A program made the position numbers and the translations under genes. A stretch of 45,673 bases of DNA from Lachnospiraceae bacterium (GTDB lineage Bacteria; Bacillota; Clostridia; Lachnospirales; Lachnospiraceae), in assembly GCA_023663945.1 (NCBI GenBank), contig JAMPGL010000032.1:1-45673 (forward strand), given 5' to 3'. How positions within the stretch are numbered: position 1 is the first letter of the stretch; the number at the start of each line of letters is the position of its first letter. Under the pieces are notes generated by a model. That model made no database searches. It was not told where the DNA came from and saw only the letters and a list, made by a program, of their open reading frames with translations. Below, piece by piece: positions 244 through 45,673 of this stretch.

Positions 244-403
244 TAAAATTCGTAACAGTTCAGCCATGCCATTCATAATTTGCCAGAATATACATTATGC
301 GCAAAGCATTACGAGCTGGCTGGCAAATTATTCATTTCGGGCGCCCACCCTATAGAAATGATTGTACAATCATTTCTGCATGGCTGAACTGTTACTAAAA
401 TTC
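244..403. mobile_element. MITE-like palindromic element with 8-bp target duplication
   Basis: A 144-bp non-coding element (252-395) has an 18-bp perfect terminal inverted repeat, 252-269 against 378-395, starting GTAACAGTTCAGCC. It is flanked by the direct repeat TAAAATTC at 244-251 and 396-403, the signature of an 8-bp target-site duplication. Inside are a second inverted repeat (AATTTGCCAG and its complement) and a perfect 24-bp palindrome at 354-377. There is no ORF for a transposase, so it would be non-autonomous. Ends beginning GTAA with 8-bp duplications are typical of IS66-family elements; assignment to that family is inference. The same terminal motif recurs at other places in this window. 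The rest of 1-426 is AT-rich and shows no credible gene. Confidence 0.75.
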
Positions 404-3428: not shown

Positions 3429-3452
3429 GACAATCTCCCATCTTTTCTATTT

Positions 3453-19369: not shown

Positions 19370-19375
19370 ATAATT

Positions 19376-27501: not shown

Positions 27502-27615
27502 ATTTTTCAACTCCTCTTATCACTATATGCCATAGCGGAAATTTTGGCAACCCATAGATTTTTCTTTTTCTGATTACTGGTAACAGTACGGTATGGGGCT
27601 TTTGAAAGTAATGGA

Positions 27616-27865
27616 TAGGGGGGACGCAACAGAGGGATGAGAGGGGAGTGGCTTTCCTGTTTTTGATGGCGATTTTCCTAAACAGCCTTAGAAGATTTTG
27701 GATGCCGTCCGGGTCGTCATATAGCGCCCTCCATGGCGCAATATGACTAAAATTGCCGTCCGTGGCAATTTTCCCCTAGGTGTCGAAAAGGCTGTTAAGG
27801 AAAAGCGCCATCAAAAACAAGGAAGCCAATCCACTCTCATCCCTCTGTTGCTGTTTTGTGGCAGG
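27616..27865 (-). repeat. Cloverleaf palindrome, family 1 copy (E)
   Basis: A long imperfect stem begins with the perfect 17-bp pair 27627-27643/27834-27850 and continues inward for about 40 more bp with few mismatches. Its apex (27700-27781) holds two small hairpins, GCGCC-CTCCAT-GGCGC and AATTGCC-GTCCGT-GGCAATT, with nearly the same loop. The apex matches the copy at 45308-45389 with about nine substitutions over 82 bp, while the arms do not match. It lies in the 763-bp gene-free stretch between the ZIP and cbiC genes; 27866-28062 in that stretch is AT-rich and shows no gene. Confidence 0.8.
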
Positions 27866-28062
27866 CTGTACTAGAAAAGAGTTTGCTTGTTTTTAGAGTG
27901 TCTCTAATATTATTTCAAAATAGATTTATTCTGCGTTTATACATGGGCATGGATAGGACTAAGACTTATATATAGCGCTTTCTCATGTATATGGCTATAC
28001 ATAGGACTTAATAAACAAATAAATATATATGAGTTTCCATACATAGAGCTTACCGATACACA

Positions 28063-28209
28063 GTGGGAGAGGGCAGAGCATAGGATAGTCTTCCGGACCT
28101 TGGCAAAGTCGCCGGCACTTATGCACCGTACTTTGGTGCATTAGTACCGCTGCGTCTTTGCAGAGCGAGAGCGTGTCCGGAAGACTATCCTATACTCTGC
28201 CCCTCCCAC
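28063..28209 (-). repeat. Large palindrome, family 2 (G)
   Basis: Arms 28063-28098 and 28175-28209 pair over about 34 bp with one mismatch and one bulge. The 76-bp apex contains a TGCACC/GGTGCA hairpin (28122-28140 region) and a stem GCAAAGTCGC/GCGTCTTTGC. The right side carries GCTGCGT and AGAGCGAGAGCGTG, identical to the core of family 3, although the other parts differ. Orientation is the same as in all other copies. It lies downstream of cbiC, where it could also protect or end the operon transcript. Confidence 0.75.
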
Positions 28210-28235
28210 GTCCGTTTATACATCTTTACCTGCAA

Positions 28236-28263
28236 AGGCTGAACCGTTACCGTTACCGTTACC
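28236..28263 (-). repeat. Repeat terminus with three GTTACC units abutting the cbiC stop
   Basis: On the written strand GGCTGAAC is followed by CGTTAC three times in tandem (28245-28262). Read on the minus strand this begins two bases after the cbiC stop and resembles the GTAAC-GTTCAGCC terminus of the element at 252-395, with a short tandem expansion. A degenerate partner, GTAACAGTACGG, is at about 27579; whether the two bound one element is doubtful. Confidence 0.4.
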
Positions 28264-32016: not shown

Positions 32017-32033
32017 ATACCTTCCTCTTTTCA

Positions 32034-32245
32034 TAACAGTTCAGTCCAGTCCACAGGCGTCAGAGCAGGTTTTACACAGAGCATGTTTTCTTAAGGAGCC
32101 CTTATAAAAACGCCAGCGCTTAGCGAGGTATTTTCGAGCTTAGCACTGCTGCGTTTTTATAGAGCGAGAGCGTGGCGACGTAGAAAACATGCTCTGTGTA
32201 AAACCAATTCTGTGTAAAACTGATTCTGCGTAAAACCTGCTTCAG
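32034..32245 (-). repeat. Palindromic element, family 3 copy A
   Basis: The 88-bp core lies at 32093-32180, starting AAGGAGCCCTTATAAAAACG. It is flanked by perfect 24-bp arms, 32068-32091 and 32182-32205. Inside the core TATAAAAACGC pairs with GCGTTTTTATA. The left edge carries TAACAGTTCAG. The right edge has been altered by a 16-bp unit repeated three times (32193-32240, TCTGTGTAAAAC plus four variable bases). The element fills the gap between the cobU-like and cobC genes, all read on the minus strand. Confidence 0.85.
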
Positions 32246-32246
32246 C

Positions 32247-32627
32247 TTACTTGATCTGCCATGGCAGCCCTGCCACAATTCTTACTACCCTATCCGCCTT
32301 CTTTGCTGCAAGACACATAGTGCGTCCCACCATCTCTCTGTAATCCCGTTCTTTTTTTTCAAGGGGCACGATTCCACAGCCAATTTCATCACAAATAATG
32401 ACCATATTGCTGTTAATTTTCGCTAACCTTTCCATAACCTCCAAGGCATCCCCTCCCTCTTCCATCACCTTCTTTATAAAAAGATGAAAATGATTCACCG
32501 CTTTACAGGCCAGCGCCTCTTCCACAGAAGCAACACTTCCTTCCAGAACTTCCTGCTCCTTTAAGCCCAGCCTTCTGCACACATAAAAAAGCTTTCCCTG
32601 TCCTTTTCCACCAATATATAATTCCAT
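32247..32627 (-). CDS. Short CobU-like protein (adenosylcobinamide kinase/guanylyltransferase-like)
   Basis: This protein has only 126 residues, against about 180 for CobU. It keeps a P-loop-like start (YIGGKGQGK), the GTP-site region NMVIICDEIGCGIVP and the CobU C-terminus (GRTMCLAAKKADRVVRIVAGLPWQIK), but much of the middle is missing, including the segment expected to hold the guanylylated His. A full CobU is encoded two genes upstream. It may be a second nucleotide-binding subunit or a specialised kinase; a decaying duplicate is possible but the reading frame and SD (GGGAG) are intact. Confidence 0.8.
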   Translation of the reverse strand: MELYIGGKGQGKLFYVCRRLGLKEQEVLEGSVASVEEALACKAVNHFHLFIKKVMEEGGDALEVMERLAKINSNMVIICDEIGCGIVPLEKKERDYREMVGRTMCLAAKKADRVVRIVAGLPWQIK

Positions 32628-32676
32628 GCCACTCCCTGCCTCCTGTTTCTATGCTGTTTTATACCACTCCCTCTAT

Positions 32677-32697
32677 GCCTGTGGGCTGAACTGTTAC
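32677..32697 (+). repeat. Solo right terminus of the family 3 element
   Basis: GCCTGTGGGCTGAACTGTTAC is identical to the right end of copy B (34228-34248). It sits in the 97-bp gap between cobS and the cobU-like gene with no left half, so it may be a scar or a partly deleted element. Confidence 0.55.
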
Positions 32698-32724
32698 CCT
32701 TTCTTTTTGCTTCTTCGGTATTTT

Positions 32725-33486
32725 TTAAAGCCTGCCCAATATCCATAAACAGAACAATGTCACAAGCTCGCTCAGGCATAAAAACCAGCCTGCCAGATCC
32801 CCGGTAATTCCTCCAAGCTCCAGCCCGGATTTTCTGTAATAATAGCAAAAAAGAATACCATTTCCTATAGCTGCGCCCAATGCTCCTATCGGATATACAT
32901 AGACCATGGCAGCAAAGCAGACAAGCAGGCTGACGGACAAGACTATTCTTACTGCCTTTTTGTGTGCTTTCGAGGAAAACTCATAAAGAAGCCCTTCCTT
33001 TTTTGCTCCCGGAAACCACACAAGGGTAAGTCCGCTTAATATCCGGGAAAGCACAAAGCCAAGGGCAAGCGTAAGCACTGCCTGTTCTTTAGCTATTTCA
33101 GAATACATACCTATATAAGCAAGATAATACATAAGCAAGGTAATCACTGCAAATGCTCCAATATGGGGATCTTTTAATATGGAAAGCTTCTGTTCTCTGC
33201 TGCCATAGGAATGGATGGCGTCCATGGTATCCATATAACCGTCTATATGAATCCCGCCTGTCAATAGCAAAGGAATCAGCGCTCCAAGTAAGCTATAAGC
33301 AACCGTTCCCAAGTGCAATATGCCGGAAAGTTTCCACCAGCCTGCCATACAAAGCCCTATGACTGCTCCCACCATAGGAAAAAAACAAATGGCATATTTC
33401 ATGTTTTTTTCATTCCATTCCACCTTTGGCATGGGAATTTTAGAATACATGGCAAATGCAATTACCATGGATTGTAATATTGTCAT
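32725..33486 (-). CDS. cobS: Adenosylcobinamide-GDP ribazoletransferase CobS
   Basis: This polytopic membrane protein of about 253 residues has the conserved metal-binding motif GGIHIDGYMDTMDA, followed by SILKDPHIGAFAV. It joins alpha-ribazole (phosphate) to adenosylcobinamide-GDP, the last step of cobalamin assembly. Several ATGs compete for the start; the one at 33486 stands six bases after AAGGAG. It lies 10 bp downstream of cobU. Confidence 0.94.
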   Translation of the reverse strand: MTILQSMVIAFAMYSKIPMPKVEWNEKNMKYAICFFPMVGAVIGLCMAGWWKLSGILHLGTVAYSLLGALIPLLLTGGIHIDGYMDTMDAIHSYGSREQKLSILKDPHIGAFAVITLLMYYLAYIGMYSEIAKEQAVLTLALGFVLSRILSGLTLVWFPGAKKEGLLYEFSSKAHKKAVRIVLSVSLLVCFAAMVYVYPIGALGAAIGNGILFCYYYRKSGLELGGITGDLAGWFLCLSELVTLFCLWILGRL

Positions 33487-33496
33487 CATCGTCTCC

Positions 33497-34042
33497 TTAT
33501 TTGTTACCATTGCCCTTCTTCTTTAATAAAACCGGAATCCCGTAAACCGCCTCATATACTTCATCCGCATTGTAAAACAGCTCCGCATTGATATTAGCCA
33601 GATACTGTATATAGCGCTCTGTTTCTTCTTCATAATCCACTCCGTCTGAAAACACCTCATTGGTAATGACGATTAAATTCCTGCACCTTTTCCCTAGCCC
33701 AGCCACTTCTTTGGAAAGTCTCTTCCAGATAGGAATTTCTTCCCTTTCCCTCTTTGTATCCGCATACATTTCATTGGCAAGCAGATTGGACATACATTCC
33801 AGCAAAACGGTGGCTTCCTTTGGAACTATAAGGTTTCCTATATCCCGGTACTGTTCTATCGTCACAAAGCCCTTTCCTTCCCTCATTGCCCTGTGGCGGG
33901 CAATTCGTTCCCTTGCTTCCTCTGAAAAGGGCTCCATGGCGGCCACATATAAAAGAGGGGCTCCCTGTGCAAGTGAAACAGCCCGTTCTTCTCCATATTC
34001 TGATTTCCCGCTTCCACTTCCGCCTGTAATTACAAGAAACAT
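33497..34042 (-). CDS. cobU: Adenosylcobinamide kinase/guanylyltransferase CobU
   Basis: The protein has about 181 residues: P-loop ITGGSGSGKSEYGE at the N-terminus, PLLYVAAMEP, the RIARHRAMR motif with the guanylylated His, TVLLECMSNLLANEM and VITNEVFSDGV, ending VYGIPVLLKKK. It phosphorylates adenosylcobinamide and then transfers GMP. ATG at 34042 follows GGGAGGAAAT; an upstream in-frame extension would be made of repeat B and is rejected. Confidence 0.94.
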   Translation of the reverse strand: MFLVITGGSGSGKSEYGEERAVSLAQGAPLLYVAAMEPFSEEARERIARHRAMREGKGFVTIEQYRDIGNLIVPKEATVLLECMSNLLANEMYADTKREREEIPIWKRLSKEVAGLGKRCRNLIVITNEVFSDGVDYEEETERYIQYLANINAELFYNADEVYEAVYGIPVLLKKKGNGNK

Positions 34043-34054
34043 ATTTCCTCCCTT

Positions 34055-34248
34055 ACAGTTCAGCCCACAGGCGCAGAGATGGTTTCCCACGAAGCACGTT
34101 TTCTGAAGGAGCCCTTATAAAAACGCCAGCGCTTAGCGAGGTAGTTTCGAGCTTAGCACTGCTGCGTTTTTATAGAGCGAAAACGTGGCGACGCAGAAAA
34201 CAGGCTTCGCTGGAAACCATCTCTGCGCCTGTGGGCTGAACTGTTACC
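34055..34248 (-). repeat. Palindromic element, family 3 copy B
   Basis: The 88-bp core at 34106-34193 differs from copy A at three positions. The outer ends form a perfect 33-bp terminal inverted repeat, 34055-34087 against 34212-34244, beginning ACAGTTCAGCCCACAGGCGC. The inner parts of the arms (CACGAAGCACGTTTTCTG and the opposite strand) pair less perfectly. The element separates cobT from cobU and ends just before the cobU SD. No clear target duplication was found. Confidence 0.88.
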
Positions 34249-34256
34249 TTTTTCTT

Positions 34257-35318
34257 CTACTGGAAATGCTGATAGGCTTCTATCTGCACCTGCTCAAAGG
34301 TGGCATTTTCCTTATATACGGAAAGAGCCATATCAAGCATGGGAAAAAGCAGCGCTGCTCCGGTTCCCTCTCCCAATGCTAGATTTCCATGTATGATAGG
34401 GGATAAGCCCAAAGCTTCCATGACTGCCCTGCTTGCCGGCTCCTTTCCCTGATGAGAAGCTATCAGATATCCCTTTACTTTTGGACAAAGCCTTACAGCC
34501 GTAAGCGCCGCCACTGCACTGATAACTCCGTCTATCACAATGGGAATCCCATACAAAGCCCCTCCCAGAAATACCCCTGTAAGACCTGCTATATCCAGTC
34601 CCCCCACACACCTTAATGCTTCAAAGGGCTCCTCCGCCTTTAGCTGATACTTTGAAATTCCTTCTTTGATTACGCTTACTTTTTTCTCTATGCCGCTCCT
34701 GCTAAGCCCTGCGCCCTTTCCTGTCACAAGCTCCGGCGGCAAATCTAAAAGCACGCTTGCCAAAGCGCTGCTTGTTGTAGTATTTCCAATTCCCATTTCC
34801 CCGGTTGCCAGAATTTCATAGCCTTTTTCCTGACACTCCTTTACCAGTTCCATGCCTGTCAAGATTGCCTGTTTTGCTTCCTCTTTTGTCATGGCAGGCT
34901 CCTTTAAGAAATTTTTTGTGCCATAGGCTGCTTTCTTTTGTAAAAGCCCCGTGTCTTTTGTATCCTTATCAATTCCAATATCCACTGCCATCACATCCAC
35001 ACGGGCAATTTGGCACATACGGTTCACACTTGCTAACCCAGCAGCCATATTTGCCGCCACAATTGCCGTAACGCTTTTATCCGTCTGGGTAACTCCCTCT
35101 TCCACAATGCCATTGTCTGCGCACATGGCAATCAAGCCTCTTTTTTCTATGGACACATCTGCCGTTTTCGTCATGCCTGCAATCCGGATAAGGATATCCT
35201 CTAATCTGCCAAGCCCCTCCAAAGGCTTGGCAATGCTGTCCCAATGGGCTTTTGCCTGTTCCATTGCCCGTTTGTTTGGTTCTTTGATTTTTTTATTATA
35301 ATCCTGAAATATGCTCAT
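34257..35318 (-). CDS. cobT: Nicotinate-nucleotide-dimethylbenzimidazole phosphoribosyltransferase CobT
   Basis: The protein has 353 residues with family motifs ADNGIVEEGVTQT (68-80), GEMGIGNTTTSSA (173-185) and the catalytic Glu319 in LALGEGTGAAL. It makes alpha-ribazole phosphate, activating the lower-ligand base. It overlaps the end of cbiA by 4 bp (ATGA). No dimethylbenzimidazole synthesis gene (bluB or bza) is visible, so the base may be scavenged or be another benzimidazole or purine. Confidence 0.96.
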   Translation of the reverse strand: MSIFQDYNKKIKEPNKRAMEQAKAHWDSIAKPLEGLGRLEDILIRIAGMTKTADVSIEKRGLIAMCADNGIVEEGVTQTDKSVTAIVAANMAAGLASVNRMCQIARVDVMAVDIGIDKDTKDTGLLQKKAAYGTKNFLKEPAMTKEEAKQAILTGMELVKECQEKGYEILATGEMGIGNTTTSSALASVLLDLPPELVTGKGAGLSRSGIEKKVSVIKEGISKYQLKAEEPFEALRCVGGLDIAGLTGVFLGGALYGIPIVIDGVISAVAALTAVRLCPKVKGYLIASHQGKEPASRAVMEALGLSPIIHGNLALGEGTGAALLFPMLDMALSVYKENATFEQVQIEAYQHFQ

Positions 35319-36751
35319 GCTTTTCTCTCTTTTTCCTTTTGCGTCCTACTATATTGTCCTGCCTGTTTTATAAACCTTTTTGCCGCCTTTTCATTGCTGT
35401 AAAAATACAAATGAGGAAAGCCTGCATAAAGGGATTCTGTCATAAGGGCAGCCTCCCAGCTTTTTCCATTTCCCGGTTTTACTGCATGAAAGCTGCTGCC
35501 CGGATGTTGACTTTCCCAGTAATGGAACTCATGCGCCGTAAGGAAAGCTCCCTTTTCACAAAGAAGCCCTCCTTCCTTTGCTTCCATAGTAATATATCCA
35601 AACCGGGAAAGCCTGCCAGCAGGAAAACATTTTCCATGCACCACTCCTGCCATGGGATATTCCACACCACTTTCATCAACCAGCCCTTCATGCAGATATA
35701 AAAAGCCACCACATTCTGCAATGCAGGGCATTCCCTGCAAAACCACCCTGTTTATTTCTTCCCTTAAGGGATAATTTTCAGAAAGCTCCTTTGCATACAG
35801 CTCCGGATAGCCCCCGCTAAGAATCAGCCCACTTGTGCCAGCGGGAAGGGACTTATCCTTTAAGGGGCTGAAATATTTGATTTCACAGCCTGCCCTTTTT
35901 AAATAATCCACATTATCCTTGTATAAAAAGCAAAAGGCATGGTCCCTTGCTATGGCTATGACAGGCGCCTGCAGCTCTGTTTCCTTATGGCTGTCTTTAA
36001 CCTGCCGCCCGGAATCTGATTCCTCTGAAAATGACTGCACAGCCTGCCCCTCTATCAGCTCAGCCTTCTGTGCAAGCTGCAAAAGCCCCGGAATGTCCAC
36101 AGTCTTTTCAAGCTCATTGGAAAGCTCCTCTATCTTTTCCCGAAAGCCTTCTATTTCTTCTGCCGTAACAAGCCCAAGATGCCTGCTTTGAAAAAGCTCA
36201 TTTTTCAAAGGGGGCAGATAGCCTAAGGGCATCAATCCATTCTCCTTTGCTAACTGCTTTGCTCCTTCATAAAGCCCCGGAGAAAGCCGGTTAAATATTA
36301 CCCCTTTTATCAGGGAAGGAGAACGGTAGGAAACAAACCCCTTTAATAGAGCGCCAATGGAATTGCTCATTCCCTTGCAGTTTACAATAAGAACCACCGG
36401 AGTTTTTGTAAGCTCTGCAATTTCTTTACTGCTTCCCTTTTCCAAAAATCCTATCCCGTCATAATAGCCCATGACCCCTTCTATGATTGCAATGTCCTTT
36501 CCCTTACTGTTTTCCAATAAAAGCTGGTTCAAAACTGTCCTGTCTGAAAAGAAGCTGTCCAGATTTCCCGTAGGAATATCAAGCACCCTGCTATGAAACA
36601 TAGAATCGATATAATCCGGTCCGCATTTAAAGGATGCCGGCATAAGCCCTCTTTTCTGCAGGCAATTCAAAATCCCACAGGTAATTGTGGTTTTTCCGCT
36701 TCCACTTCCCGTTCCCGCAAGCAGCACTCGATTTACGGCTCTTTTTTCCAT
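35315..36751 (-). CDS. cbiA: Cobyrinate a,c-diamide synthase CbiA
   Basis: The protein has about 478 residues, with P-loop LLAGTGSGSGKTTITCGIL at the N-terminus, KCGPDYIDSMFH, EGVMGYYDG and NRLSPGLYEG, then a glutaminase domain with LILSGGYPELYA and nucleophile Cys in CIAECGGFLYL. It amidates the a and c acetate side chains using glutamine and ATP. ATG at 36751 follows GGGAGAG; the TTG 18 bp upstream lies within the SD and was rejected. Confidence 0.96.
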   Translation of the reverse strand: MEKRAVNRVLLAGTGSGSGKTTITCGILNCLQKRGLMPASFKCGPDYIDSMFHSRVLDIPTGNLDSFFSDRTVLNQLLLENSKGKDIAIIEGVMGYYDGIGFLEKGSSKEIAELTKTPVVLIVNCKGMSNSIGALLKGFVSYRSPSLIKGVIFNRLSPGLYEGAKQLAKENGLMPLGYLPPLKNELFQSRHLGLVTAEEIEGFREKIEELSNELEKTVDIPGLLQLAQKAELIEGQAVQSFSEESDSGRQVKDSHKETELQAPVIAIARDHAFCFLYKDNVDYLKRAGCEIKYFSPLKDKSLPAGTSGLILSGGYPELYAKELSENYPLREEINRVVLQGMPCIAECGGFLYLHEGLVDESGVEYPMAGVVHGKCFPAGRLSRFGYITMEAKEGGLLCEKGAFLTAHEFHYWESQHPGSSFHAVKPGNGKSWEAALMTESLYAGFPHLYFYSNEKAAKRFIKQAGQYSRTQKEKERKA

Positions 36752-36787
36752 AACGGCTCTCCCTTCCAAAAACCTGTAGCTTATCCT

Positions 36788-37981
36788 CTAAGCATTGATA
36801 GTAATGATATATATAGGATTCTGTCCCATGAGCATATGGACATTTCCCATCTCCCTTGCTTTTGAAACTGCCACCTGTACGATTTCCACCTTACTTATGG
36901 ACAATTCCCGGCACAGCTCCAGCACTTTCCCCACCGTTTCAATGGCAATGGCGCTTAAGACAATTCTCACATGGGGATTTTTATGAAGAAGCAATTTGAT
37001 GATTTCATCTATTTTTCCGCTGCTTCCTCCTATAAAAGCGGCATGGGGCTTTTCTAAAGGCTCCATTGCTTTTGGCGCCATTCCTTCTATAATCTCCAGA
37101 TTGGCAAGCCCAAATTTTCTTTTGTTTTCCTTTATAAGACTGATTGCTTCCTCTTTGCCTTCTATGGCATATACCCTTCCACCAAAAGCCGCAAGAGCCA
37201 TTTCTACGGAAACAGAGCCTGTTCCTGCTCCAATGTCATACAGAATTTCGTGGTTTGCAACCGCTAACTTACTCATAGCAACTGCCCTTACTTCACTTTT
37301 CGTAATAGGAACATTTCCCCGGACAAAGCTTTCTTCCGGAATCCCATATGGCATTTTACATTCCGGCTGTTCATTTAAAATCAGCATAACGGATAAAGGC
37401 TCATATTCCTTTTGGGACAGCTCCTGTAAGGTTCCTGTAGAAATCTTTTCTGTTTCATAGGAAAGATTTTCGCCAATATATGCTCTTTTTTCACCCATGC
37501 CACCGTCTACCAACTCTTTTATCGTCTCATGAAAGCTGCCGCCTCCCAAAAGAAATAGCTTCGTATTCCCTTTTACTGCCTGCAGCACATTTTCCCTTCT
37601 GCCATGAATACTGATAATTGCCGCATCCTCCCAAGAAATCCCAAGTCTTGCAGAAAAATAAGAAAGAGACGAAATACCGGGAATCAACCGTACCTGACAG
37701 CTTTCCTTTAACAATGGGTAAAGCCTTTTAGCGCCGCTGTAAAAACCCACGTCTCCAGACATCAGCACAGCAATCCTATCCGCTTTAGACTGCCAGATGG
37801 CTTCTAAAACAGCTTCCTCTTTATATTCCTCCAAAAACTCTTTTCCGGATTCCCTGCTAAAACCTGCTAAAACACGCTTTGCCCCAATAAGCAGCTTTGC
37901 CTGCTCAATTTCCCGCTTTCCCTCTATCGTAAGAGTTGCCTCGGTCCCCATTCCAGTTCCAATAATGCTTACCTGTTTCAT
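36788..37981 (-). CDS. cbiET: Fused CbiE-CbiT, cobalt-precorrin-6B C5,C15-methyltransferase/decarboxylase
   Basis: This 397-residue fusion has two parts. Residues 1 to about 200 are a tetrapyrrole methylase (IIGTGMGTEATLTIEG, VLMSGDVGFYSGA, LIPGISSLSYFSARLG), i.e. CbiE. From about 215 onward is a class I SAM methyltransferase with YDIGAGTGSVSVEMA (248-262) and IFGGSSGKI-like loop AFIGGSSGKIDEI, i.e. CbiT. The CobL-like fusion does both methylations and the loss of the C12 acetate carboxyl. AAGGA precedes ATG, 37 bp upstream of cbiA. Confidence 0.94.
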   Translation of the reverse strand: MKQVSIIGTGMGTEATLTIEGKREIEQAKLLIGAKRVLAGFSRESGKEFLEEYKEEAVLEAIWQSKADRIAVLMSGDVGFYSGAKRLYPLLKESCQVRLIPGISSLSYFSARLGISWEDAAIISIHGRRENVLQAVKGNTKLFLLGGGSFHETIKELVDGGMGEKRAYIGENLSYETEKISTGTLQELSQKEYEPLSVMLILNEQPECKMPYGIPEESFVRGNVPITKSEVRAVAMSKLAVANHEILYDIGAGTGSVSVEMALAAFGGRVYAIEGKEEAISLIKENKRKFGLANLEIIEGMAPKAMEPLEKPHAAFIGGSSGKIDEIIKLLLHKNPHVRIVLSAIAIETVGKVLELCRELSISKVEIVQVAVSKAREMGNVHMLMGQNPIYIITINA

Positions 37982-38024
37982 CCCGTTATCCTTTCTCCGG
38001 CTCTATTCTGCACACCTGCTTCGG

Positions 38025-38903
38025 TTATATGGAGCTTATCCGCATTTTTATCTCTTCCATGGAACAGCCCTTTTCCTCTCTTGGCCTTTTGATTCCTACC
38101 ACTTTGGTTCTCGCTTCTTTTGCCGCAGCTATTTTTTCCGGAAATCCCCCTGCTTTTCCGGATTCCTTTGTTACCATATAGGAAATTTGAAATTCCCTAA
38201 GCATTGCCAAATTCAGCTCTTTGGAAAAGGGACCCTGCATACAAATCAAGTTTTTTCCCTGAATGCCAAGCTCAAGGCACTTTTTTACCATTTCCGGAAC
38301 AGGCAGTATTCTCACATAAATCCGCTCCTCATAAGCAGGAATGCACAGAAATTCTTCCAGCTCCTTGCTTCCGGTGGTTAATAAAATATTGCCTTTCTTT
38401 TCCTTTAGATAAGCAGCCGCTTCCCTACTGTCTTCTACCCAGTAAATTCCCTCATAATGTCCTCCTTCTTCCTCACGTCTTAAACGGATATAAGAACAGC
38501 TAGTTTCCTGACATGCTTTTCTTATATTTTCGGTTACCTCTTTGGCATAAGGATGTGTCCCGTCAATGACAAGCTTTGGAGCATAATATCTCATCTGCTC
38601 CGCCATCTGCTGCCAGTTCAGCCTGCCTGCAGCCACTTTTATCTGGCCGGTTTCCTGCTGGCTTTTCCTCCTGTTTTCCTGTTCGGCTTTCCGTTCCTTT
38701 TTCTGTCCGATATCCTCCATAAGACTTTCGCCATATTCCGTAGCTACATATACCACTGCGCTTTTGCCTGTTTCTTTTATGTATTCACTCAGAAGCCTTC
38801 CTTCTTTTGTTCCTCCAAACAATAAAATATCTGCCATGTATCCTGCTGTTACACTACCCACAGGAAGCTCGGCAATCTGAAAATTTCTATTTTCCGGCTT
38901 CAT
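38025..38903 (-). CDS. cbiJ: Cobalt-precorrin-6A reductase CbiJ
   Basis: The Rossmann-like start ILLFGGTKEGRLLSEYI, DGTHPYAKEVTENIRKAC and TTGSKELEEF match CbiJ/CobK, the NADPH-dependent macrocycle reductase. Length is 292 residues from the first ATG (GAGG seven bases upstream). An ATG 66 bp later, directly before ADILLFGG, would give a more typical length of 270 residues; both are possible. It overlaps the HTH gene by 17 bp, so the two are coupled. A charged insertion (KKERKAEQENRRKSQQETGQ) interrupts the N-terminal half. Confidence 0.92.
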   Translation of the reverse strand: MKPENRNFQIAELPVGSVTAGYMADILLFGGTKEGRLLSEYIKETGKSAVVYVATEYGESLMEDIGQKKERKAEQENRRKSQQETGQIKVAAGRLNWQQMAEQMRYYAPKLVIDGTHPYAKEVTENIRKACQETSCSYIRLRREEEGGHYEGIYWVEDSREAAAYLKEKKGNILLTTGSKELEEFLCIPAYEERIYVRILPVPEMVKKCLELGIQGKNLICMQGPFSKELNLAMLREFQISYMVTKESGKAGGFPEKIAAAKEARTKVVGIKRPREEKGCSMEEIKMRISSI

Positions 38904-39108
38904 CTGATGACCTCTTTCTCCAATTACAGTACTCTCCTGTAACTACCCTGTTATCAGTGGGCTTCTGTGCATCAACCGGAATAGCCCAAGCCTTACCAAA
39001 TTTTGTTACACCCTTAATTTTTCCTTCTGCACACATTATCTGTACGCTTCTTACTGTAATACCCCATTTTTTTGCTGTATCCTGTACCGTTATGTAACCT
39101 TCTATCAT
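38887..39108 (-). CDS. Small helix-turn-helix DNA-binding protein
   Basis: This protein of 73 residues resembles the excisionase/MerR-type HTH_17 domain: GYITVQDTAKKWGITVRSVQIMCAEGKI, then WAIPVDAQKPTDNR, a motif often seen in Lachnospiraceae. It is the first gene of the downstream cobalamin unit, directly behind its promoter and overlapping cbiJ. It may regulate the operon, or be a small mobile-element protein that has become the leader gene. SD AGAGGT precedes ATG. Confidence 0.8.
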   Translation of the reverse strand: MIEGYITVQDTAKKWGITVRSVQIMCAEGKIKGVTKFGKAWAIPVDAQKPTDNRVVTGEYCNWRKRSSDEAGK

Positions 39109-39168
39109 TCTTTACCTCTTATTCTGCCTTTTCTTCAGGCTTAATTATATACTGAATCAATTGTATAT

Positions 39169-39197
39169 ACTATAATCGCTTTTGCGAAAAATGTCAA
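39169..39197 (-). promoter_or_regulatory. Promoter of the downstream cobalamin operon
   Basis: On the minus strand TTGACA (39192-39197), 17-bp spacer, TATAGT (39169-39174), about 60 bp before the HTH gene. No cobalamin riboswitch lies between it and the HTH gene; the leader is too short. The left target repeat of palindrome C begins 9 bp upstream of the -35. Confidence 0.8.
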
Positions 39198-39205
39198 TGT
39201 AGTCT

Positions 39206-39459
39206 CACTTTTACCACGGAAATCAATTTTTAGTCAGCCACTCCCTTCTCACAGGCGCCAAAACGGGTCTTGGACAGAAATATTTCTTAAGGAGCCCTTA
39301 TAAAAACGCCAGCGCTTAGCGAGGTATTTTCGAGCTTAGCACTGCTGCGTTTTTATAGAGCGAAAGCGTGGCGACGAAGAAACATTTCTGTCCAAGACCC
39401 GTTTTGGCGCCTGTGGGAAGGAAGCGGTTGACTAAAAATTGATTTCCGTGCACTTTTAC
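39206..39459 (-). mobile_element. Palindromic element, family 3 copy C, with 9-bp flanking direct repeats
   Basis: The 88-bp core (39289-39376) differs from copy A by one base. A perfect 31-bp pair (39250-39280/39385-39415) and a perfect outer 22-bp pair (39215-39236/39429-39450) form arms of about 75 bp in all, with a mismatched middle. The direct repeat CACTTTTAC abuts both ends (39206-39214 and 39451-39459), as expected for a target-site duplication. The outermost inverted repeat (CACGGAAATC...) is unrelated to the ends of copies A, B and the 252-395 element. Confidence 0.85.
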
Positions 39460-39541
39460 AACCGTTTTCGCAGTCAGTTCAGTTTAAACTCATAAAGCGC
39501 AGAAAATGAGACACGCTAACTATCATAGGAGCTAATATACA

Positions 39542-39690
39542 ATGCCAAAACCACGAACACAAAATGGCAGATTGACTGGGATAATGTAAAGCAATATTTT
39601 GAAGGATATGTCGGGGACTATTACGAAATCGCTGAAAATGCAGAACGTATTTTTATTGGAAATGAACTGCCTGAAGAATATACGGAATCA
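39542..39690 (+). pseudogene. Remnant of an unidentified gene
   Basis: A good SD (AGGAG, about 39528) precedes ATG at 39542, but that frame stops after 15 codons. Another frame across the same stretch reads like a real acidic protein, DWDNVKQYFEGYVGDYYEIA followed by ENAERIFIGNELPEEY, about 45 residues with no related continuation. A frameshift and truncation would explain this. I do not recognise the family with certainty. The rest of 39460-39902 has no further credible gene. Confidence 0.45.
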
Positions 39691-39902
39691 GAGAGCTGGA
39701 AAAGCCCCAAACCCTTGTGTTTACGGCTTAGCTCCGACTATTCGAGCTCGTCTCACGTATATGATTGTAAGATACTTTTGTGTCTGTTTTATATTTTTCA
39801 ATCCATCTATTTCGCATATTATTTCTATTATCGTAAGACTTCTAAAAATTTTAGAAGCAAAATAGAAGCACTACAAATCCGACAGAGTTTAGGCAACAAA
39901 CA

Positions 39903-40694
39903 TTATACTGGTTGCAATTCCTTTTCCAGTTCAAATACTCGTTCAAGAGAAAGTCCAGAATACAATGCGATTTCTTCTGAAGATAATTTTCCTGCTTCTA
40001 TCATCCTCAATGCAGATTGTCTTTTCTCCTGCTCAACACCCTGCTCATATTTTTCCTGATAATTCATCTGCAAAGTCATATAATCCAACCTCCATTTTTC
40101 ATTCTTTCTGACAGACTGCACTGCCTCATCTAATTCTCTGGTAAAGTCATCCTCTGGCTCTTTCCCGTCAATAAAATCAAGCAACTTTTTCATTTCCGGT
40201 GTAACATCATCCATTGTTCCCTTAGTATTTAAAATAATCTTTGTTGTATCGTCACCCAAGCTCAACTCCAGATTTTGAATACAACGGTTTTCAAAGGTAT
40301 AAATGTGCCTTCCCTCGCCAAACAAATCAAAGGTACATACCAAAATAACAAAACTCCGTTTCAAGTCTTTGTAATTATCTCCCTTTTCCAAAATATTCAA
40401 GTCTATCATTCCCTGATAATATCTTGTTCGCTTTGGCAGGTTTCTATTCTCTGTTGTCTGCATTTCAATATTATAAACGGTTTCTTTTCCATCCTCCACA
40501 TAGATATCCAATCGTACGCTTTTTGCATCTGCGGAAATATCTATTATCGCCTGCGACTTAGGATATTCGATGTGGGATATTTTTATGTTAAGTATCCGTT
40601 CTAAAAAAGGTTTACAAAACTTCGGATTTCTCATAATAACACTAAACATGAAATCATCCTTAATTTGCAGTTCCTCAAAGGCCTTCTCTGTCAT
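39903..40694 (-). CDS. Rpn-family PD-(D/E)XK nuclease/putative transposase
   Basis: This protein of 263 residues has the start of the PDDEXK_2 domain (IKDDFMFSVIMRNPKFCKPFLERIL) and core residues RLDIYVED...YNIEMQ, where Asp and E-x-Q form the nuclease site. FVILVCTFDLFGEGRHIYTFENRC is typical of the family. The C-terminus ends LRMIEAGKLSSEEIALYSGLSLERVFELE like the paralogue at 14.8 kb, though the N-terminal halves belong to different branches. It has its own promoter and SD (GGGG) and interrupts the cobalamin cluster between cbiH and the HTH gene. Confidence 0.88.
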   Translation of the reverse strand: MTEKAFEELQIKDDFMFSVIMRNPKFCKPFLERILNIKISHIEYPKSQAIIDISADAKSVRLDIYVEDGKETVYNIEMQTTENRNLPKRTRYYQGMIDLNILEKGDNYKDLKRSFVILVCTFDLFGEGRHIYTFENRCIQNLELSLGDDTTKIILNTKGTMDDVTPEMKKLLDFIDGKEPEDDFTRELDEAVQSVRKNEKWRLDYMTLQMNYQEKYEQGVEQEKRQSALRMIEAGKLSSEEIALYSGLSLERVFELEKELQPV

Positions 40695-40719
40695 AGCATT
40701 TCCCCTTTTCTTTATCTAT

Positions 40720-40748
40720 ATTATAATATGCGTCTGTGTAGTTGACAA
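40720..40748 (-). promoter_or_regulatory. Promoter of the second Rpn gene
   Basis: On the minus strand TTGTCA (40743-40748), 17-bp spacer, TATAAT (40720-40725), about 26 bp upstream of the start codon. Confidence 0.7.
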
Positions 40749-41165
40749 GGACTGATTTTTTCCAGATTGAGTCTAATTCCCCGATACTTGCATTGTTCTA
40801 ACTATACCGTACGAAGTGATGCCGAGTTAATATCCTAAGCACTCTTTTGGGGCTTGAGCTCTTATACTGTTGAAGTTTATTTCTACATCAACAAGCCAGA
40901 GCAGCAAATCAATTTACATACATTTCATATGGCATTTCTAAGTCTATATTTATTATCTTATAATTCATCACGTAGCATAAAACCAATTGTAGAGCCTTTC
41001 TCTACCAAAAAATCTAACACCTGTTCTACTTGAGTTTTAATGGTCTGATTTTTTTGATTTCACATCTATGGTAATCACAATATGTCTCCAAATACTTTTC
41101 AAGATAATATATAGTATTGATTAATAATCGAAAATGGCAGGAAATATCTGTACGACATTCTAGCG
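40749..41165. other. Gene-free stretch with a possible coding remnant
   Basis: AT-rich DNA without an intact gene. On the minus strand 40958-41047 reads, from just after a stop, TIKTQVEQVLDFLVEKG, then STIGFMLRDEL and a stop. This has protein-like composition and may be the last 30 residues of a lost gene. Otherwise I see nothing. Confidence 0.3.
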
Positions 41166-41220
41166 ATAAAAAAAGAAACGAGCAAGCCGTAGCAAAATGT
41201 ACGGTGAAAACCCATTTCTT
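41166..41220 (-). terminator. Terminator of the upstream cobalamin operon
   Basis: On the minus strand AGAAA...CCGTA-loop-TACGG...TTTCT folds into an interrupted stem that runs into a stretch of seven T residues (about 41174-41168). It lies some 110 bp after the cbiH stop codon. Confidence 0.55.
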
Positions 41221-41327
41221 ACTATCAATATTAATTCATTTCTCATGTCCTGCCAATCCCTAATTTTTTTACAATATTTTTTGCAGAATCCCCATAGGGT
41301 ATTTTTAACGCAATGGAGGTTGTCACA

Positions 41328-42089
41328 TTAAGTACCAGAACCTATCACATCACCAAAGTAGCCTCTTGGCGTTACCATTTTTCCGTCTATATTTCTGGTG
41401 GCGCTGTTTCCGATAAACACTGTGGTAAACATATCCACCTTCGCATCCTTTAATTCCTTCAGGGAAAGGACAGCCATTGTTTCTCCTTCTCTTCCGATAT
41501 TTTTTACATAACCACACACTGTTTCCGGCTTCTGATAGGTTAACACAATTTCGCAGGCTCTTTTCAAATAGTCTGCTCTTTTTTTGCTGGAGGGATTGTA
41601 AAGGCAAATAGCCATATCACTCATTGCAGCATGGGCAATCCTTTTTTCAATCAACCAAAGGGGTGTCATCAGGTCGCTTAAGCTGATAACTGCAAAATCA
41701 TGGGATAAAGGCGCTCCTAAAACAGCTCCGCCGCTGCTTGCGGCTGTTACTCCTGCAATTACCTTTACTTCTGTTCCTGAAAAATCCCCCTGCTTCCCCT
41801 TCTGCTCCATCAGCTCATAGATCAGACTTGCCATTCCATAAATACCGCTGTCGCCACTGCACACCAAGGAAACCTGTTTTCCTTCCTCCGCTCTTTCCAA
41901 CGCCCATAAACAGCGTTCTTTTTCCTGCTTCATAGGAGTGGAATAAAATTCCTTTTCCTTATAATACGGCTTTAACAATTCCACATAAACCGAATATCCG
42001 ACTATCATCTGGCTGTTATCCAAAGCCTTTTTTGCTTCCATTGTCATCCCGTTTATACCACCGGGACCAAATCCTATGATGTATAACAT
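41328..42089 (-). CDS. cbiH: Cobalt-precorrin-3 C17-methyltransferase CbiH
   Basis: This tetrapyrrole methylase of 253 residues has the SAM-binding start [67 protein letters not shown]-like segment and a late [11 protein letters not shown], all diagnostic of CobJ/CbiH. It methylates C17 and drives ring contraction. ATG follows AGGTGAAAATAT. A gap of 130 bp separates it from cbiG. Confidence 0.95.
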   Translation of the reverse strand: [253 protein letters not shown]

Positions 42090-42219
42090 ATATTTTCACC
42101 TGATTGCTTTCTTATTATTTCCGATTGCCGTTTACCGTTCATTTCCGGATATCAGCCTGAAATCCTACAATAAATCTGACTCCTCACTGTTTTATATATC
42201 CATTGCCTGCTTTTTCCGC

Positions 42220-43302
42220 TCAAAAACATATTTCAATATCCACCGGCAGCCGATACACCGCAAGGCTCATTCCATCCCTTGTCTGCTTCCGAACCAGAAA
42301 CTCTCCTTTTTCTTCCCCATAGGCTGCACTCCGCTCACAAACATTTTCCACGCCTACTGTCTTTTTTACAAATTCTGAAGAAGAAAAATCCCCTGTAAGG
42401 CTTCCTAATTGCTCCTTTGTATAAGTAACAAAGGGAACCTGCAAATACTCTGCCAGTTTTTTCAGGCCTTCCTCTTCTTTTTTATTTTCGATGGAACAGA
42501 TGCTGCGAATCCTTTTTTCGGAAATGTCCTTTGCCTTTAATGTATCTGCCAGAAAAGAATATAATTCCTCTGCCCCTTTTCCTTTCCTGCATCCCATGCC
42601 AACCATAACATCCATAGGCATTAACCGGCATTCCCATGGATTTGGATTTTCTGCTTCTTCCAGTTCCTGATAAGAAATTCTAATCCGTATTTTACTAAAT
42701 TCCTGTTCTTTGGCTTCATCCTCCATAAAAGCAAGCTCTTTCGGAAGCCTTCCCCTAATTGGGAAATCACTTTTCAGCCGGATTCTCTTTCCCTGCAAAA
42801 TATCACCGGAAATTTCCTTTATCTTTTTCATATCCAGAATGCGTAAATGATTTTCTTTTGCGAAGTTATCCACGGCAAACTTATGGTTTAAATCGGTTGC
42901 CGTAGTAATCACCGGCTTTGCGCCTGTTAGGTAAGCGGTTTCCATGCACCAGCGGTTAGCGCCTCCTAAATGTCCCGACAGCAGGGAAATCACGTGCTCT
43001 CCCATCTCATCCATCACAAGCACCGCCGGGTCTTTCTCTTTTCCCCGCAGGTACGGTGCAATTGCCCTGACTGCAATCCCAGTGCTTCCAATCACTAATA
43101 TCCCATCCACCTTTTGAAAGCATTGCTTTATAACATCATCCAGTTTTTCAAAGCTTTCCAGCCCGTTAGCGGCAAATTTCCAAAAGCTATAGCCTGTTAC
43201 TTCCCTATCCATTCCATCCGGGCAGGATGCTCGCCAAAGCCCGGTAAGCTTCCTGTTCCATTCCATTCCTTTTTTTGTAAAAGAAATAATCACTATTTTC
43301 AT
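42220..43302 (-). CDS. cbiG: Cobalt-precorrin-5A hydrolase CbiG
   Basis: The protein has 360 residues. The N-terminal domain includes GILVIGSTGIAVRAIAPYL and the strongly conserved VISLLSGHLGGAN; a variable middle is followed by the C-terminal domain with VMVGMGCRKGKGAEEL. It opens the delta-lactone of cobalt-precorrin-5A and releases acetaldehyde, a step found only in the anaerobic pathway. It overlaps cbiF by 4 bp (ATGA). Confidence 0.95.
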   Translation of the reverse strand: MKIVIISFTKKGMEWNRKLTGLWRASCPDGMDREVTGYSFWKFAANGLESFEKLDDVIKQCFQKVDGILVIGSTGIAVRAIAPYLRGKEKDPAVLVMDEMGEHVISLLSGHLGGANRWCMETAYLTGAKPVITTATDLNHKFAVDNFAKENHLRILDMKKIKEISGDILQGKRIRLKSDFPIRGRLPKELAFMEDEAKEQEFSKIRIRISYQELEEAENPNPWECRLMPMDVMVGMGCRKGKGAEELYSFLADTLKAKDISEKRIRSICSIENKKEEEGLKKLAEYLQVPFVTYTKEQLGSLTGDFSSSEFVKKTVGVENVCERSAAYGEEKGEFLVRKQTRDGMSLAVYRLPVDIEICF

Positions 43303-44057
43303 TCTTCTATTCCTTGTCGAAACTCTGTAGTAAAGTGTTTATCGTACAGCTTGGAAAGCTGATAATCACTTTTCAAAAAGTCTCCTACCACAATCAAAGC
43401 CGTCTTGCTAATTCCATTTTTTGCCGCCATTTCTGGAAGCTCCCTTAGCTCTCCTCTTATAATTTTTTCTTCCGGCCATGTGGCTTTATATACAATGGCA
43501 CATGGCGTATCCTCCCTGTAACCTCCCAAAAGCAGCCTTTCCTTTACTTCCGGCAAAAGTCCTGTGCTTAAAAATATCACCATGGAAGCCTCATGAGAAG
43601 CAAGAAGCTCCAAGGCTTCCTTTTTTGGCACTTTGGTACGACCTGCCATTCTTGTAATAATAACCGTCTGTGAAACCTCCGGCAGCGTATATTCTTCCTT
43701 CAAGGCCGCAGCAGCTCCACAAAAGCTGCTGACTCCCGGACATACTTCATAGGCAATCCGCTGTTTTTTTAAGGCATCCATCTGCTCCTTTATTGCTCCA
43801 TATAAACAAGGGTCGCCTGTATGGAGCCTGACAGTCAGCTTTCCGGCTTTTTCTCCTTCTATAAGCACCTTCAGCACTTCCTCCAAGGTCATATAGGCGC
43901 TGTTGTATACCTGACAGCCCTCTTTTCTTTCCGCTAACAATTCTTCATTTACCAGAGAGCCTGCATAAACGATAATATCTGCCTCCCTTAAAAGCCTATA
44001 GCCCCTAAGTGTAATCAAATCTGCTGCTCCCGGCCCCGCTCCTACAAAATACACCAT
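43299..44057 (-). CDS. cbiF: Cobalt-precorrin-4 C11-methyltransferase CbiF
   Basis: This tetrapyrrole methylase of about 252 residues has VYFVGAGPGAADLITLRG at the start, IVYAGSLVNEELL, RLHTGDPCLYGAI and VCPGVSSFCGAAAAL. It is CobM/CbiF by these motifs. ATG at 44057, with AAAGGA upstream, lies 2 bp after the cbiD stop; an in-frame TTG 24 bp earlier was rejected. Confidence 0.95.
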   Translation of the reverse strand: MVYFVGAGPGAADLITLRGYRLLREADIIVYAGSLVNEELLAERKEGCQVYNSAYMTLEEVLKVLIEGEKAGKLTVRLHTGDPCLYGAIKEQMDALKKQRIAYEVCPGVSSFCGAAAALKEEYTLPEVSQTVIITRMAGRTKVPKKEALELLASHEASMVIFLSTGLLPEVKERLLLGGYREDTPCAIVYKATWPEEKIIRGELRELPEMAAKNGISKTALIVVGDFLKSDYQLSKLYDKHFTTEFRQGIEE

Positions 44058-44059
44058 AA

Positions 44060-45196
44060 TTATTTTATTTCCTTTCTGCAAAGCTCCAGCAAATCCGCTG
44101 CCTTTGAAGTATGTCCCAAAATACCTTGCTCATTGGAAAAAAAGATGGCTCCTATATGAAGTCCCTGAAAGGCTCTCCTTGTAAGATGTTCTTCCATCTT
44201 CCCAGACAATTCATTCATTGTTTCTTTTAACATTCCTTTTTCTTCCAGCAAGGTCACGGCTTCCTCAGTTGTATTGCAGGCAAGGATTTTTTTTGTGGTT
44301 TCCAAATCACAGCCTGCCCTTAATGCAGCAGCACATAAGGTTTCCATTCTGGCATCCGCCCATTTGGAATGAGTATTCATGACTCCTGCTCCCAGCTTTA
44401 CAAGCTTGCCTATATGTCCTACTAAAAGCAGACCCTCCAGCTTAAATTCATATGCCATGTCAATGGTTTCCCCTATAAAATTACTGCATTTCATACAATG
44501 CTCCAGATTTATATGGAGCACGTCCCTTATAAAATCACTTCCGTAATTTCCCGGTGTGATAATAAGGTATTTTCGCCCTTCCGCCGCCTGCTGCTTCATT
44601 TCTGCATGTATAGTCTCAAGCAGCGCCCTTTCACTCATAGGCTCTACAATGCCGGAAGTTCCAAGAACAGAAATTCCACCTTCAATGCCAAGCCGGGGAT
44701 TAAAGGTTTTCTTTGCAATTTCTATTCCCTCCGGAATCGAAATCACTGCAGACAATCCTCCTTCATAGCCCGCTTCTTCGGCTGCTTCCTGCAAGGCTTC
44801 CAATATCATCTGTCTGGGCACCCGGTTAATGGCTGCAGCCCCTACCGGCTGTTCCAAGCCGGGTCTGGTAACCCTTCCTATACCAATTCCGCCTTCTACC
44901 AGAAATTCCCTTTTTGTTCTGGAAACGGAAGCATACACCAAAATGCCATTAGTGACATCCGCATCATCACCACTGTCTTTTCTTATGGCACAGCTTACTG
45001 CTTCTTTTTGCCTTTCCATCCGCTCTATGGGAAGGGAAAGCAGGATTCCTTTTGGAGTGGTAATGGATACTTCTTTTATTTCGGTTCCTGATAAAAGTAT
45101 ACTTGCGGCAGCTTTGGCAGCAGCAGCGGCACAGGAGCCGGTGGTGAAGCCGCATCTTAGTTTGCGGTTGTTTTTGTAGATGTATTGGTTTAGCAT
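44060..45196 (-). CDS. cbiD: Cobalt-precorrin-5B C1-methyltransferase CbiD
   Basis: The protein has about 378 residues and starts MLNQYIYKNNRKLRCGFTTG followed by SCAAAAAKAA, the CbiD signature. GGIGIGRVTRPGL, INRVPRQMI and GGISVLGTSGIVEPMSERAL follow. It is the SAM-dependent C1 methylase of the anaerobic pathway. ATG at 45196 follows AAGGAG at eight bases. A longer in-frame reading upstream would translate palindrome F and is rejected. Confidence 0.96.
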   Translation of the reverse strand: MLNQYIYKNNRKLRCGFTTGSCAAAAAKAAASILLSGTEIKEVSITTPKGILLSLPIERMERQKEAVSCAIRKDSGDDADVTNGILVYASVSRTKREFLVEGGIGIGRVTRPGLEQPVGAAAINRVPRQMILEALQEAAEEAGYEGGLSAVISIPEGIEIAKKTFNPRLGIEGGISVLGTSGIVEPMSERALLETIHAEMKQQAAEGRKYLIITPGNYGSDFIRDVLHINLEHCMKCSNFIGETIDMAYEFKLEGLLLVGHIGKLVKLGAGVMNTHSKWADARMETLCAAALRAGCDLETTKKILACNTTEEAVTLLEEKGMLKETMNELSGKMEEHLTRRAFQGLHIGAIFFSNEQGILGHTSKAADLLELCRKEIK

Positions 45197-45223
45197 GAGG
45201 AGGTCTCCTTTTGGGGAAAGTGT

Positions 45224-45470
45224 GGAGGGGGACGCAAAAGAGGGGTGTGGCAGGGTGGCGGCATTGTTTTTTATGGCGCTTTTACTAAACAGGCTGGGGA
45301 AGGAAGTGGATGGCTGCCGGGTCGGCATATAGCGCCGTCCGTGGCGCAATATGCCTAAAATTGCCATCCGTGGCAATTTTGCCCTAGGTTATCTAGCAGC
45401 CTGTTAAGTAAAAGCGCCATAAAAAACAATGCCGCCACCCTGCCACACCCCTCTTTTGCTGTTCTTCGGC
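45224..45470 (-). repeat. Cloverleaf palindrome, family 1 copy (F)
   Basis: Arms 45234-45296 and 45397-45459 match over 62 of 63 bp. The apex (45308-45389) holds two hairpins, GCGCC-GTCCGT-GGCGC inside the pair GGCATAT/ATATGCC, and AATTGCC-ATCCGT-GGCAATT. Boundaries GGGGGACGCAA and TTGCTGTT are shared with copy E, but the arms in between are not. It starts about 30 bp upstream of cbiD and would be in its mRNA leader. Confidence 0.85.
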
Positions 45471-45522
45471 TTCCACTACTGGTTGCTTGGTTTAAAGAAG
45501 GATATAATTGCTGATAACATGT

Positions 45523-45552
45523 ACATTTATCATATACATTTACCATATACAT
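45523..45552. repeat. Short 13-bp tandem repeat
   Basis: ACATTTATCATAT and ACATTTACCATAT (45523-45548) are adjacent and followed by ACAT, in AT-rich DNA between palindromes F and D. It may be part of a promoter region or regulator site for cbiD; no clear -35/-10 pair could be assigned. Confidence 0.4.
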
Positions 45553-45590
45553 AAAACTACCTTAAGGCTTTTCGATAACCAGCAGGAGCA

Positions 45591-45673
45591 GCCCACAGGC
45601 GCCAGAGCGGGTTTCGTACAGAGCATGTTTTCTGAAGGAGCCCTTATAAAAACGCCAGCGCTTAGCGAGGTAT
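45591..45673 (-). repeat. Palindromic element, family 3 copy D, cut by the window end
   Basis: The left arm GCCCACAGGCGCCAGAGCGG and onward is followed at 45635 by the first 39 bases of the 88-bp core, identical to copies A and C. The right half lies beyond the window. Its arm is most similar to that of copy A. Confidence 0.8.

Follow-up and report, generated by a model that had tools for sequence, protein, structure and literature searches.

The 45,673-nucleotide stretch of Lachnospiraceae DNA analysed here (contig JAMPGL010000032.1 of GenBank assembly GCA_023663945.1, referred to below in its full length as the window) carries several copies of a repeat in which an asymmetric 88-bp core lies between the arms of a long palindrome. 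These repeats are non-autonomous mobile elements resembling miniature inverted-repeat transposable elements (MITEs), probably of Lachnospiraceae. The full reading, which we regard as likely, is that of MITE-like mobile elements whose arms are kept alike by copying at the DNA level and whose core is maintained by selection on its fold. The original prediction, made from the letters of the window, had suggested a new structured RNA or hairpin DNA element. The core does possess a covarying fold, as that suggestion implied; what had been missed is that the elements have transposed and are flanked by target-site duplications.

The evidence for transposition comes from the tips of the elements and the DNA that adjoins them. 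A profile of the repeat returned 364 rows, of which 290 were near full length and 227 distinct. With 20 short-arm copies excluded from the arm counts, 207 copies were sorted by tip pattern into T1 (68), T2 (15), T3 (67) and unclassed (57); since the classes were set by text patterns, some copies are misfiled. T1 tips (GTAACAGTTCAGCC) are bordered by exact 8-bp flanking repeats in 16 of the 42 copies that have both tips, and by repeats with at most one mismatch in 22 of the 42, against 0.8% per copy in a shuffled control. For T2 tips (CACGGAAATCAATTTT) the duplication is 9 bp, exact in 5 of 12 both-tip copies, the window's copy C among them, and within one mismatch in 10 of 12 (controls, 3.5% and 6.8%). 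Exact flanking repeats of other lengths were seen in three T1 cases and in no T2 case. No target-site duplication was seen by eye around T3 elements, which in this respect do not look like MITEs.

Nine sites were found at which the element is present in one genome and a relative has a gap of at most 9 bp (-23 to 9 bp; five sites with gaps of 29-59 bp were left uncounted), the pair L188/L196 being the clearest. Solo T1 and T2 elements measure about 180-260 bp and contain no transposase gene, composites of 578 and 683 bp occur, and deletion remnants of 62-63 bp were found. By a simple caller of open reading frames (ORFs), 173 of the 179 copies with sufficient flank are located outside any ORF of 90 aa or longer. 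The tips and the core are separable: one core is found on different tip classes, and T1 tips enclose other contents, including the Rfam motif TwoAYGGAY (RF01731) at L166 (partly N), TwoAYGGAY with a shortened core hairpin at L178, and a different 144-bp interior in the window. The window's own composite resembles the L178 type but has a full core. The 144-bp element, whose interior is itself partly palindromic, has transposed without a core, and T1 mobility therefore does not require one.

The arms change in sequence while their pairing is kept. For 21 T1 copies, drawn from the 64 that carry the first core type by requiring that the left tip stand exactly 49 nt away from the core and that the arms align without gaps, the two arms differ by 5.2% within a copy and by 18.8% between copies, and the core differs by 3.8%; the within-copy value was reached in none of 10,000 permutations. 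At each of the outer 15 arm positions one base is shared by at least 20 of the 21 left arms, and at the next nine by 17-21, with variation concentrated at positions 24-38. T2 tip CACGGAAATC stands in 12 copies, which were picked by that tip. It had been proposed that the arms show the reverse of the MITE pattern, with pairing retained and sequence variable; this is true of the mid-arm only, because the outer tips, near-invariant between T1 copies, do not vary.

How the arms change can be followed at orthologous sites. Five independent T3 pairs (57/74, 211/219, 222/216, 156/157 and 196/170), with flanks 83-94% identical, show 14 concerted substitutions against one clear internal one-arm change, with a few further one-arm columns at the arm edges; three more concerted gap columns at the outer end of the arm in 222/216 were not counted. 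Length differences of 5 nt and 7 nt are each mirrored in both arms. At one orthologous site the element is inverted between the same flanks (L175 4693 vs L235 9940). Mispairs within arms, given as G·T/A·C/other, number 67/51/22 in T1, 26/13/12 in T2, 10/8/15 in the 67 T3 copies and 41/47/86 in unclassed copies, and when pooled amount to 144 G·T vs 119 A·C (p = 0.14). Orientation relative to neighbouring genes is random (tandem same-strand 47, tandem antisense 55, convergent 24, divergent 47). Because the concerted changes include changes of length, because G·T and A·C are about equal in the pool, and because orientation is random, correction of the arms at the DNA level by template switching most likely explains them better than selection on an RNA stem. 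Both had been offered as explanations at the outset; it is correction that fits better, and selection on a fold of the arms less so.

The core behaves differently, and its fold does look constrained. The alignment comprises 41 distinct cores out of 47 representatives, six having been dropped by hand for spurious leading sequence or long loops. They share a three-way junction in which P1, formed by the arms, is followed by a joiner CTT, by P2 with its TTA/TTA internal loop and upper stem, and by P3, after which the strand returns to P1. P3 consists of two pairs capped by a GNRA tetraloop in 224 of the 227 distinct copies (GAAA 105, GAGA 95, GGGA 20, other 4); the exceptions are L100, L201 and the window's copy B, which also breaks the fold rule in that one C·A replaces a pair in P3. 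Double changes occur at 13 of the 16 pairs of P2. Over the 19 given core pairs, 90.9% of cells pair and 14 of the pairs show double changes, the double-change cells numbering 99 against a shuffled mean of 33.2 that no shuffle of 500 raised to that level; slid controls gave 4-13. A corrected alignment, given new P1 and loop registers by a script for this count only, contains 1014 Watson-Crick cells, compared with an average of 740 and a maximum of 778 in shuffles. One core type has tandem G·A/A·G at two places where the other has Watson-Crick pairs; these are presumably sheared pairs, which would mark the plus strand as the folded strand. A conserved covarying fold, for which the arms had originally been singled out, is thus present and located in the core.

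No Rfam 15 family matches the core at its gathering score in the sequences scanned with cmscan, namely the window, 17 loci of other genera, and 140 kb each of G061, a Robinsoniella metagenome-assembled genome (MAG), and G063, another of the three host genomes. At E values up to 1, the sole Rfam overlap with a core is a sub-threshold microRNA match. RF01731 matches never overlap cores, and RF01731 and the R1 model, with which cores were scored, find different places.

There is a marked regularity in how the hairpins are placed relative to one another. The T3 arrangement is often a two-hairpin element with both hairpins facing outward, and in G061 the partner is often TwoAYGGAY. Within 700 bp of each other, 18 neighbouring core pairs were found in the loci examined, of which 12 are well separated and all 12 outward. 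The other six overlap and were not counted for orientation; they are palindromised cores of G000, the genome to which the window is assigned, as would be expected if a two-hairpin MITE had collapsed at the centre of the core. The G000 loci L020, L022, L024, L025, L028 and L035 are MITEs with mostly TTTCGGTTTA-like tips, each a near-perfect single hairpin with its interior lost, and seem to have formed in this way from two outward hairpins. An order-wide R1 search gave more outward pairs among the matches listed, together with two same-strand pairs in G339 (contigs C17 and C55). TwoAYGGAY and the core form divergent, outward pairs in 9 of 9 cases found: two in the window, two at L157, one each at L048, L155, L161 and L163, and one at L262 in another genus. 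In 140 kb of G061, five of seven TwoAYGGAY matches have a divergent core partner, the exceptions being L159 and L165. An equal length of G063, 140 kb, contained no TwoAYGGAY despite at least seven core matches, so the core/TwoAYGGAY partnership is not general. The foot ACA[G...C]GTCC is common to T3 hairpins and, by eye, to the window's TwoAYGGAY hairpins.

This arrangement has prompted the thought that the hairpins are ends read by an enzyme. In its broadest form, a tentative proposal that is on balance improbable, there would be a family-wide set of transposons with three-way-junction hairpin ends, core or TwoAYGGAY, recognised by shape, whose free-sequence stems are kept by arm copying; if true, TwoAYGGAY would be a transposon end rather than a cis-regulatory RNA. 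An alternative, which we think unlikely, would have the element read as folded single-stranded DNA or a cruciform by a transposase or recombinase, with the core as a shape-specific end and the arms selected for pairing rather than sequence. Integron attC sites, folded single-stranded DNA selected for pairing and recognised by an integrase, offer a resemblance only. The outward-facing core and core/TwoAYGGAY pairs, the foot that T3 and TwoAYGGAY hairpins share, and a core without a strong G·U preference are all as expected for such ends. The same-strand neighbours in G339, the transposed T1 element that lacks a core and the lack of any enzyme found, the host Y1 genes included, are not.

Selection on the transcript appears quite unlikely as the source of the paired arms. 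On this view the repeat would act as a structured RNA, with its long P1 stem under selection at the RNA level and its arms evolving by ordinary compensatory mutation through G·U intermediates. The covarying core fold, its GNRA loops and its plus-strand tandem G·A pairs agree with an RNA, as does the preponderance of G·T over A·C in T1 and T2 arms taken together (93 vs 64). That preference is missing from T3, whose arms are the best kept, and in the core one P2 pair appears as C·A in 20 of the 41 sequences but in none as G·T, the remaining core cells giving 25 G·T vs 17 A·C. The mirrored length changes of the orthologues and the random orientation relative to genes likewise speak against it. 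The idea that copies are simply young, their arms matching because little time has passed since insertion, suits the exact target duplications retained in many T1 and T2 copies and may hold for part of those classes, but for T3 it is contradicted by shared sites whose arms are almost perfect although their sequence has changed, and with a between-copy arm difference more than three times the within-copy one it is hardly credible overall.

Several observations weigh against arm copying and a selected core in mobile elements. The T1 and T2 arms are less perfect, with a mispaired share of 3.8% in T1 and 4.9% in T2, compared with 1.5% in T3. At some closely related T1 orthologues (92/121, 105/106 and 108/117) one-arm changes outnumber concerted ones, and correction is therefore not always effective; in the T2 pair 7/58 the two kinds are about equally frequent. 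The G·T excess in T1 and T2 arms is modest (p = 0.025) and counts here because RNA-level selection would give the same. The inverted site rests on a right flank of 77 nt, two further opposite-orientation pairs (22/67 and 107/15) may be independent insertions, and the orthology comparisons come almost wholly from three genomes. The nearly uniform outward orientation of paired hairpins means that inversion must be rare or selected against. Among the five measures of covariation, the pair-type count did not rise above shuffles (223/500). Finally, no transposase was found between T1 or T2 tip pairs up to 4 kb apart in the loci examined, T3 ends not having been systematically searched.

Candidates for the mobilising enzyme fared no better. 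A gapped DNA pattern for tip pairs had no match. L251, a 1.8-kb T1-tipped locus considered as an autonomous element, is by eye an unrelated insertion sequence (IS): positions 2595-4438 hold a transposase-bearing IS with tips ATGCCATTAAGTTAAG that has gone into the core within a T1-tipped element, duplicating about 11 bp. IS66 as the T1 mobiliser is not supported, with one partial, interrupted match in the three host genomes. IS66 tips in the genus of G000, which may not be the host's, read GTAAGCGTC or GTAAACGTC, unlike T1, and several loci showed none. An IS200/RAYT origin was rejected, the Y1 loci L255-L258 having no core GNRA motif alongside; by eye, the only Y1 transposase genes in the three hosts resemble ordinary IS200 genes. 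These loci represent one IS200-like Y1 transposase locus for each of G061-G063, that of G061 being split over two frames. A terminator was also rejected, as no T-tract was visible after the palindrome on either side.

On the reading we prefer, DNA-level arm copying around a selected core, mismatches between arms would be erased as one arm is copied onto the other, through quasi-palindrome template switching or intramolecular conversion. Mid-arm sequence may therefore drift with pairing kept. The slower change of the core would reflect the importance of its asymmetric fold, which most likely serves the element as a structured end or hairpin. Within operons, the long stem would be expected to provide an RNase III-type processing site in either orientation as a side effect.

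In the window, copies A, B, C and partial D indeed have the core in common, as first proposed; over 86 aligned bases A and C are 98.8% and A and B 96.5% identical. The arms had been described as perfectly paired over 24, 33 and 31 bp. The measured arms are longer: 31 nt (90% complementary), 51 nt (92%) and 74 nt (93%) for A, B and C. Copy C is an element as predicted with ends set too far out, the outermost 9 bp on each side being the duplication (Table 1). A second core type is present in the composite, and TwoAYGGAY lies beside copy D. The composite's two halves each face outward, and its flanks, GATTACTG and CATTACTG, are equal at seven of eight bases. Copy D has a T3-like foot (CGATAACCA before GCAGGAGC, judged by eye) external to a T1-like inner arm. 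The right arm of copy A (32183-32245) holds two additional units of about 16 nt (TCTGTGTAAAAC-like), an expansion in one arm only.

Table 1. Elements and their parts in the window, in order of position
Feature	Positions	Strand	Remarks
144-bp element without core	252..395		Same T1 tips, other interior; exact 8-bp duplication TAAAATTC on each side
Composite element, 683 bp	27580..28262		T1-like tips GTAACAGTACGG ... GGCTGAACCGTTAC
TwoAYGGAY (RF01731) half of composite	27656..27821	-	89.6 bits
Core of composite, second sequence type (F28)	28091..28180	+	R1 95.6 bits; 31-33-nt arms; GTCC after 3' arm
Copy A	32034..32245	+	T1-type left tip (TAACAGTTCAG...), arm, core, arm; right tip degenerate
Copy A core, three-way junction P1/P2/P3	32092..32179	+	R1 100.7 bits
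Copy B, T1-type palindrome	34055..34244	+	Arms 34055-34105 / 34194-34244, core 34105-34192; R1 89.3 bits
Copy C, left 9-bp target-site duplication	39206..39214		CACTTTTAC
Copy C, T2-type palindrome	39215..39450	+	Tips CACGGAAATC / GATTTCCGTG, 74-nt arms, core 39288-39375; R1 100.1 bits
Copy C, right 9-bp target-site duplication	39451..39459		CACTTTTAC
TwoAYGGAY hairpin, palindrome with 63-nt arms	45234..45459	-	RF01731 at 45263-45430; divergent to copy D
Partial copy D, truncated by contig end	45582..45673	+	Core start 45634; R1 28.6 bits

The genes around copies A-C belong to a cobalamin cluster, in which CobT, CobB and precorrin-6A reductase exceed NCBIfam cut-offs and CobC-, CobS- and CobU-like ORFs score below them. 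Copy A lies between minus-strand ORFs of this cluster at 31393-32034 and 32247-32627, and by eye copies A and B stop a short way upstream of the ribosome-binding sites that belong to the minus-strand genes following them. The core had been taken as co-directional with these genes. The GNRA loop, however, reads on the plus strand and the cobalamin ORFs on the minus strand, which makes the core, as written, antisense to them. Nor does the impression that all copies point the same way extend beyond the window, given 47 tandem same-strand against 55 tandem antisense copies. About 450 bp from copy C is a minus-strand ORF (39903-40694) for an Rpn-family recombination-promoting nuclease/putative transposase, and 6S RNA is encoded at 19190-19372 on the minus strand.

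The true host of the window is probably G061, a Robinsoniella-type genome. Positions 29674-45673 (16 kb) are 100% identical to G061 contig JAMPFB010000057, full-length core matches above 84% identity in G000 are confined to the window contig (C33), and the gene at about 30618-31189 has a second stretch, 71% identical, on contig C13 of G000; for these reasons the window contig is probably mis-binned. A first survey of G061 gave 323 candidates, of which 40 were scored. Its contig C60 is 562 kb long, and the initial 390 kb hold 39 places from 41 matches, some partial, which is close to one every 10 kb. The exact core pattern is present in a Robinsoniella MAG and in two Lachnospiraceae MAGs, and in the genus of G000 the first core type has matches in 23 of 37 genomes. 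R1 matches 63 of 392 sampled genomes of the order, in 31 of 174 genera (E up to 1e-4), and 10 of 391 genomes of the class (E up to 1e-5), in both cases all within the family of G000, presumably Lachnospiraceae. Of 29 loci from other genera, 28 have palindromic arms, 24-79 nt long with 0-14 mispairs. This is a widespread element, and one with no Rfam family match in the loci scanned.

No description of the element came up in literature searches on palindromes or MITEs in connection with Lachnospiraceae, template switching or target duplication. Among known repeats, the GTAG or GTGG present at the 5' foot of many T3 hairpins recalls REP/RAYT elements. Unlike in those, the T3 foot is within the pairing and not universal, and the core is absent beside Y1 genes.

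A closer likeness is to the bacterial hairpin MITEs, for which the available portions of a review treat Correia/NEMIS, ERIC, RUP, BOX and QMITE2, the last with target duplications of 7-9 bp (PMC10969869). Like these, the present elements are short, lack a transposase, have terminal inverted repeats and short duplications, and exist in many intergenic copies whose transcripts are expected to form strong stems; RNase III cleavage of Correia stems is reported in the same portions. As far as those portions describe the MITEs, the elements differ from them in having a covarying three-way-junction core common to different tips and a mid-arm that differs between copies with pairing kept.

TwoAYGGAY, as presented in the accessible part of its description (RF01731; PMC2864571), is comparable in occupying the middle of long palindromes whose arms differ, with a GTCC foot and divergent pairing with the core. 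The core differs from it in sequence and is found in G063 sequence where TwoAYGGAY is absent. An unexplained Rfam motif is thereby linked to a mobile element.

The arms, finally, find their counterpart in template-switched hairpins. Template switching between inverted repeats yields arm homogenisation and spacer inversion, according to the sections available (PMC8604942; see PMC8794818), and the present elements share with such hairpins the homogenised arms, the concerted changes of several bases and the inverted spacer (PMC8794818, PMC8604942). The precedents in those sections are RNA genes and yeast coding DNA with short inverted repeats, whereas here arms of about 20-89 nt belong to a mobile element of many copies. 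Covariation is usually taken as proof of RNA selection; in these elements that of the arms looks mutational, and that of the core, with its slow change, looks selected, so that the two can be told apart within one element.

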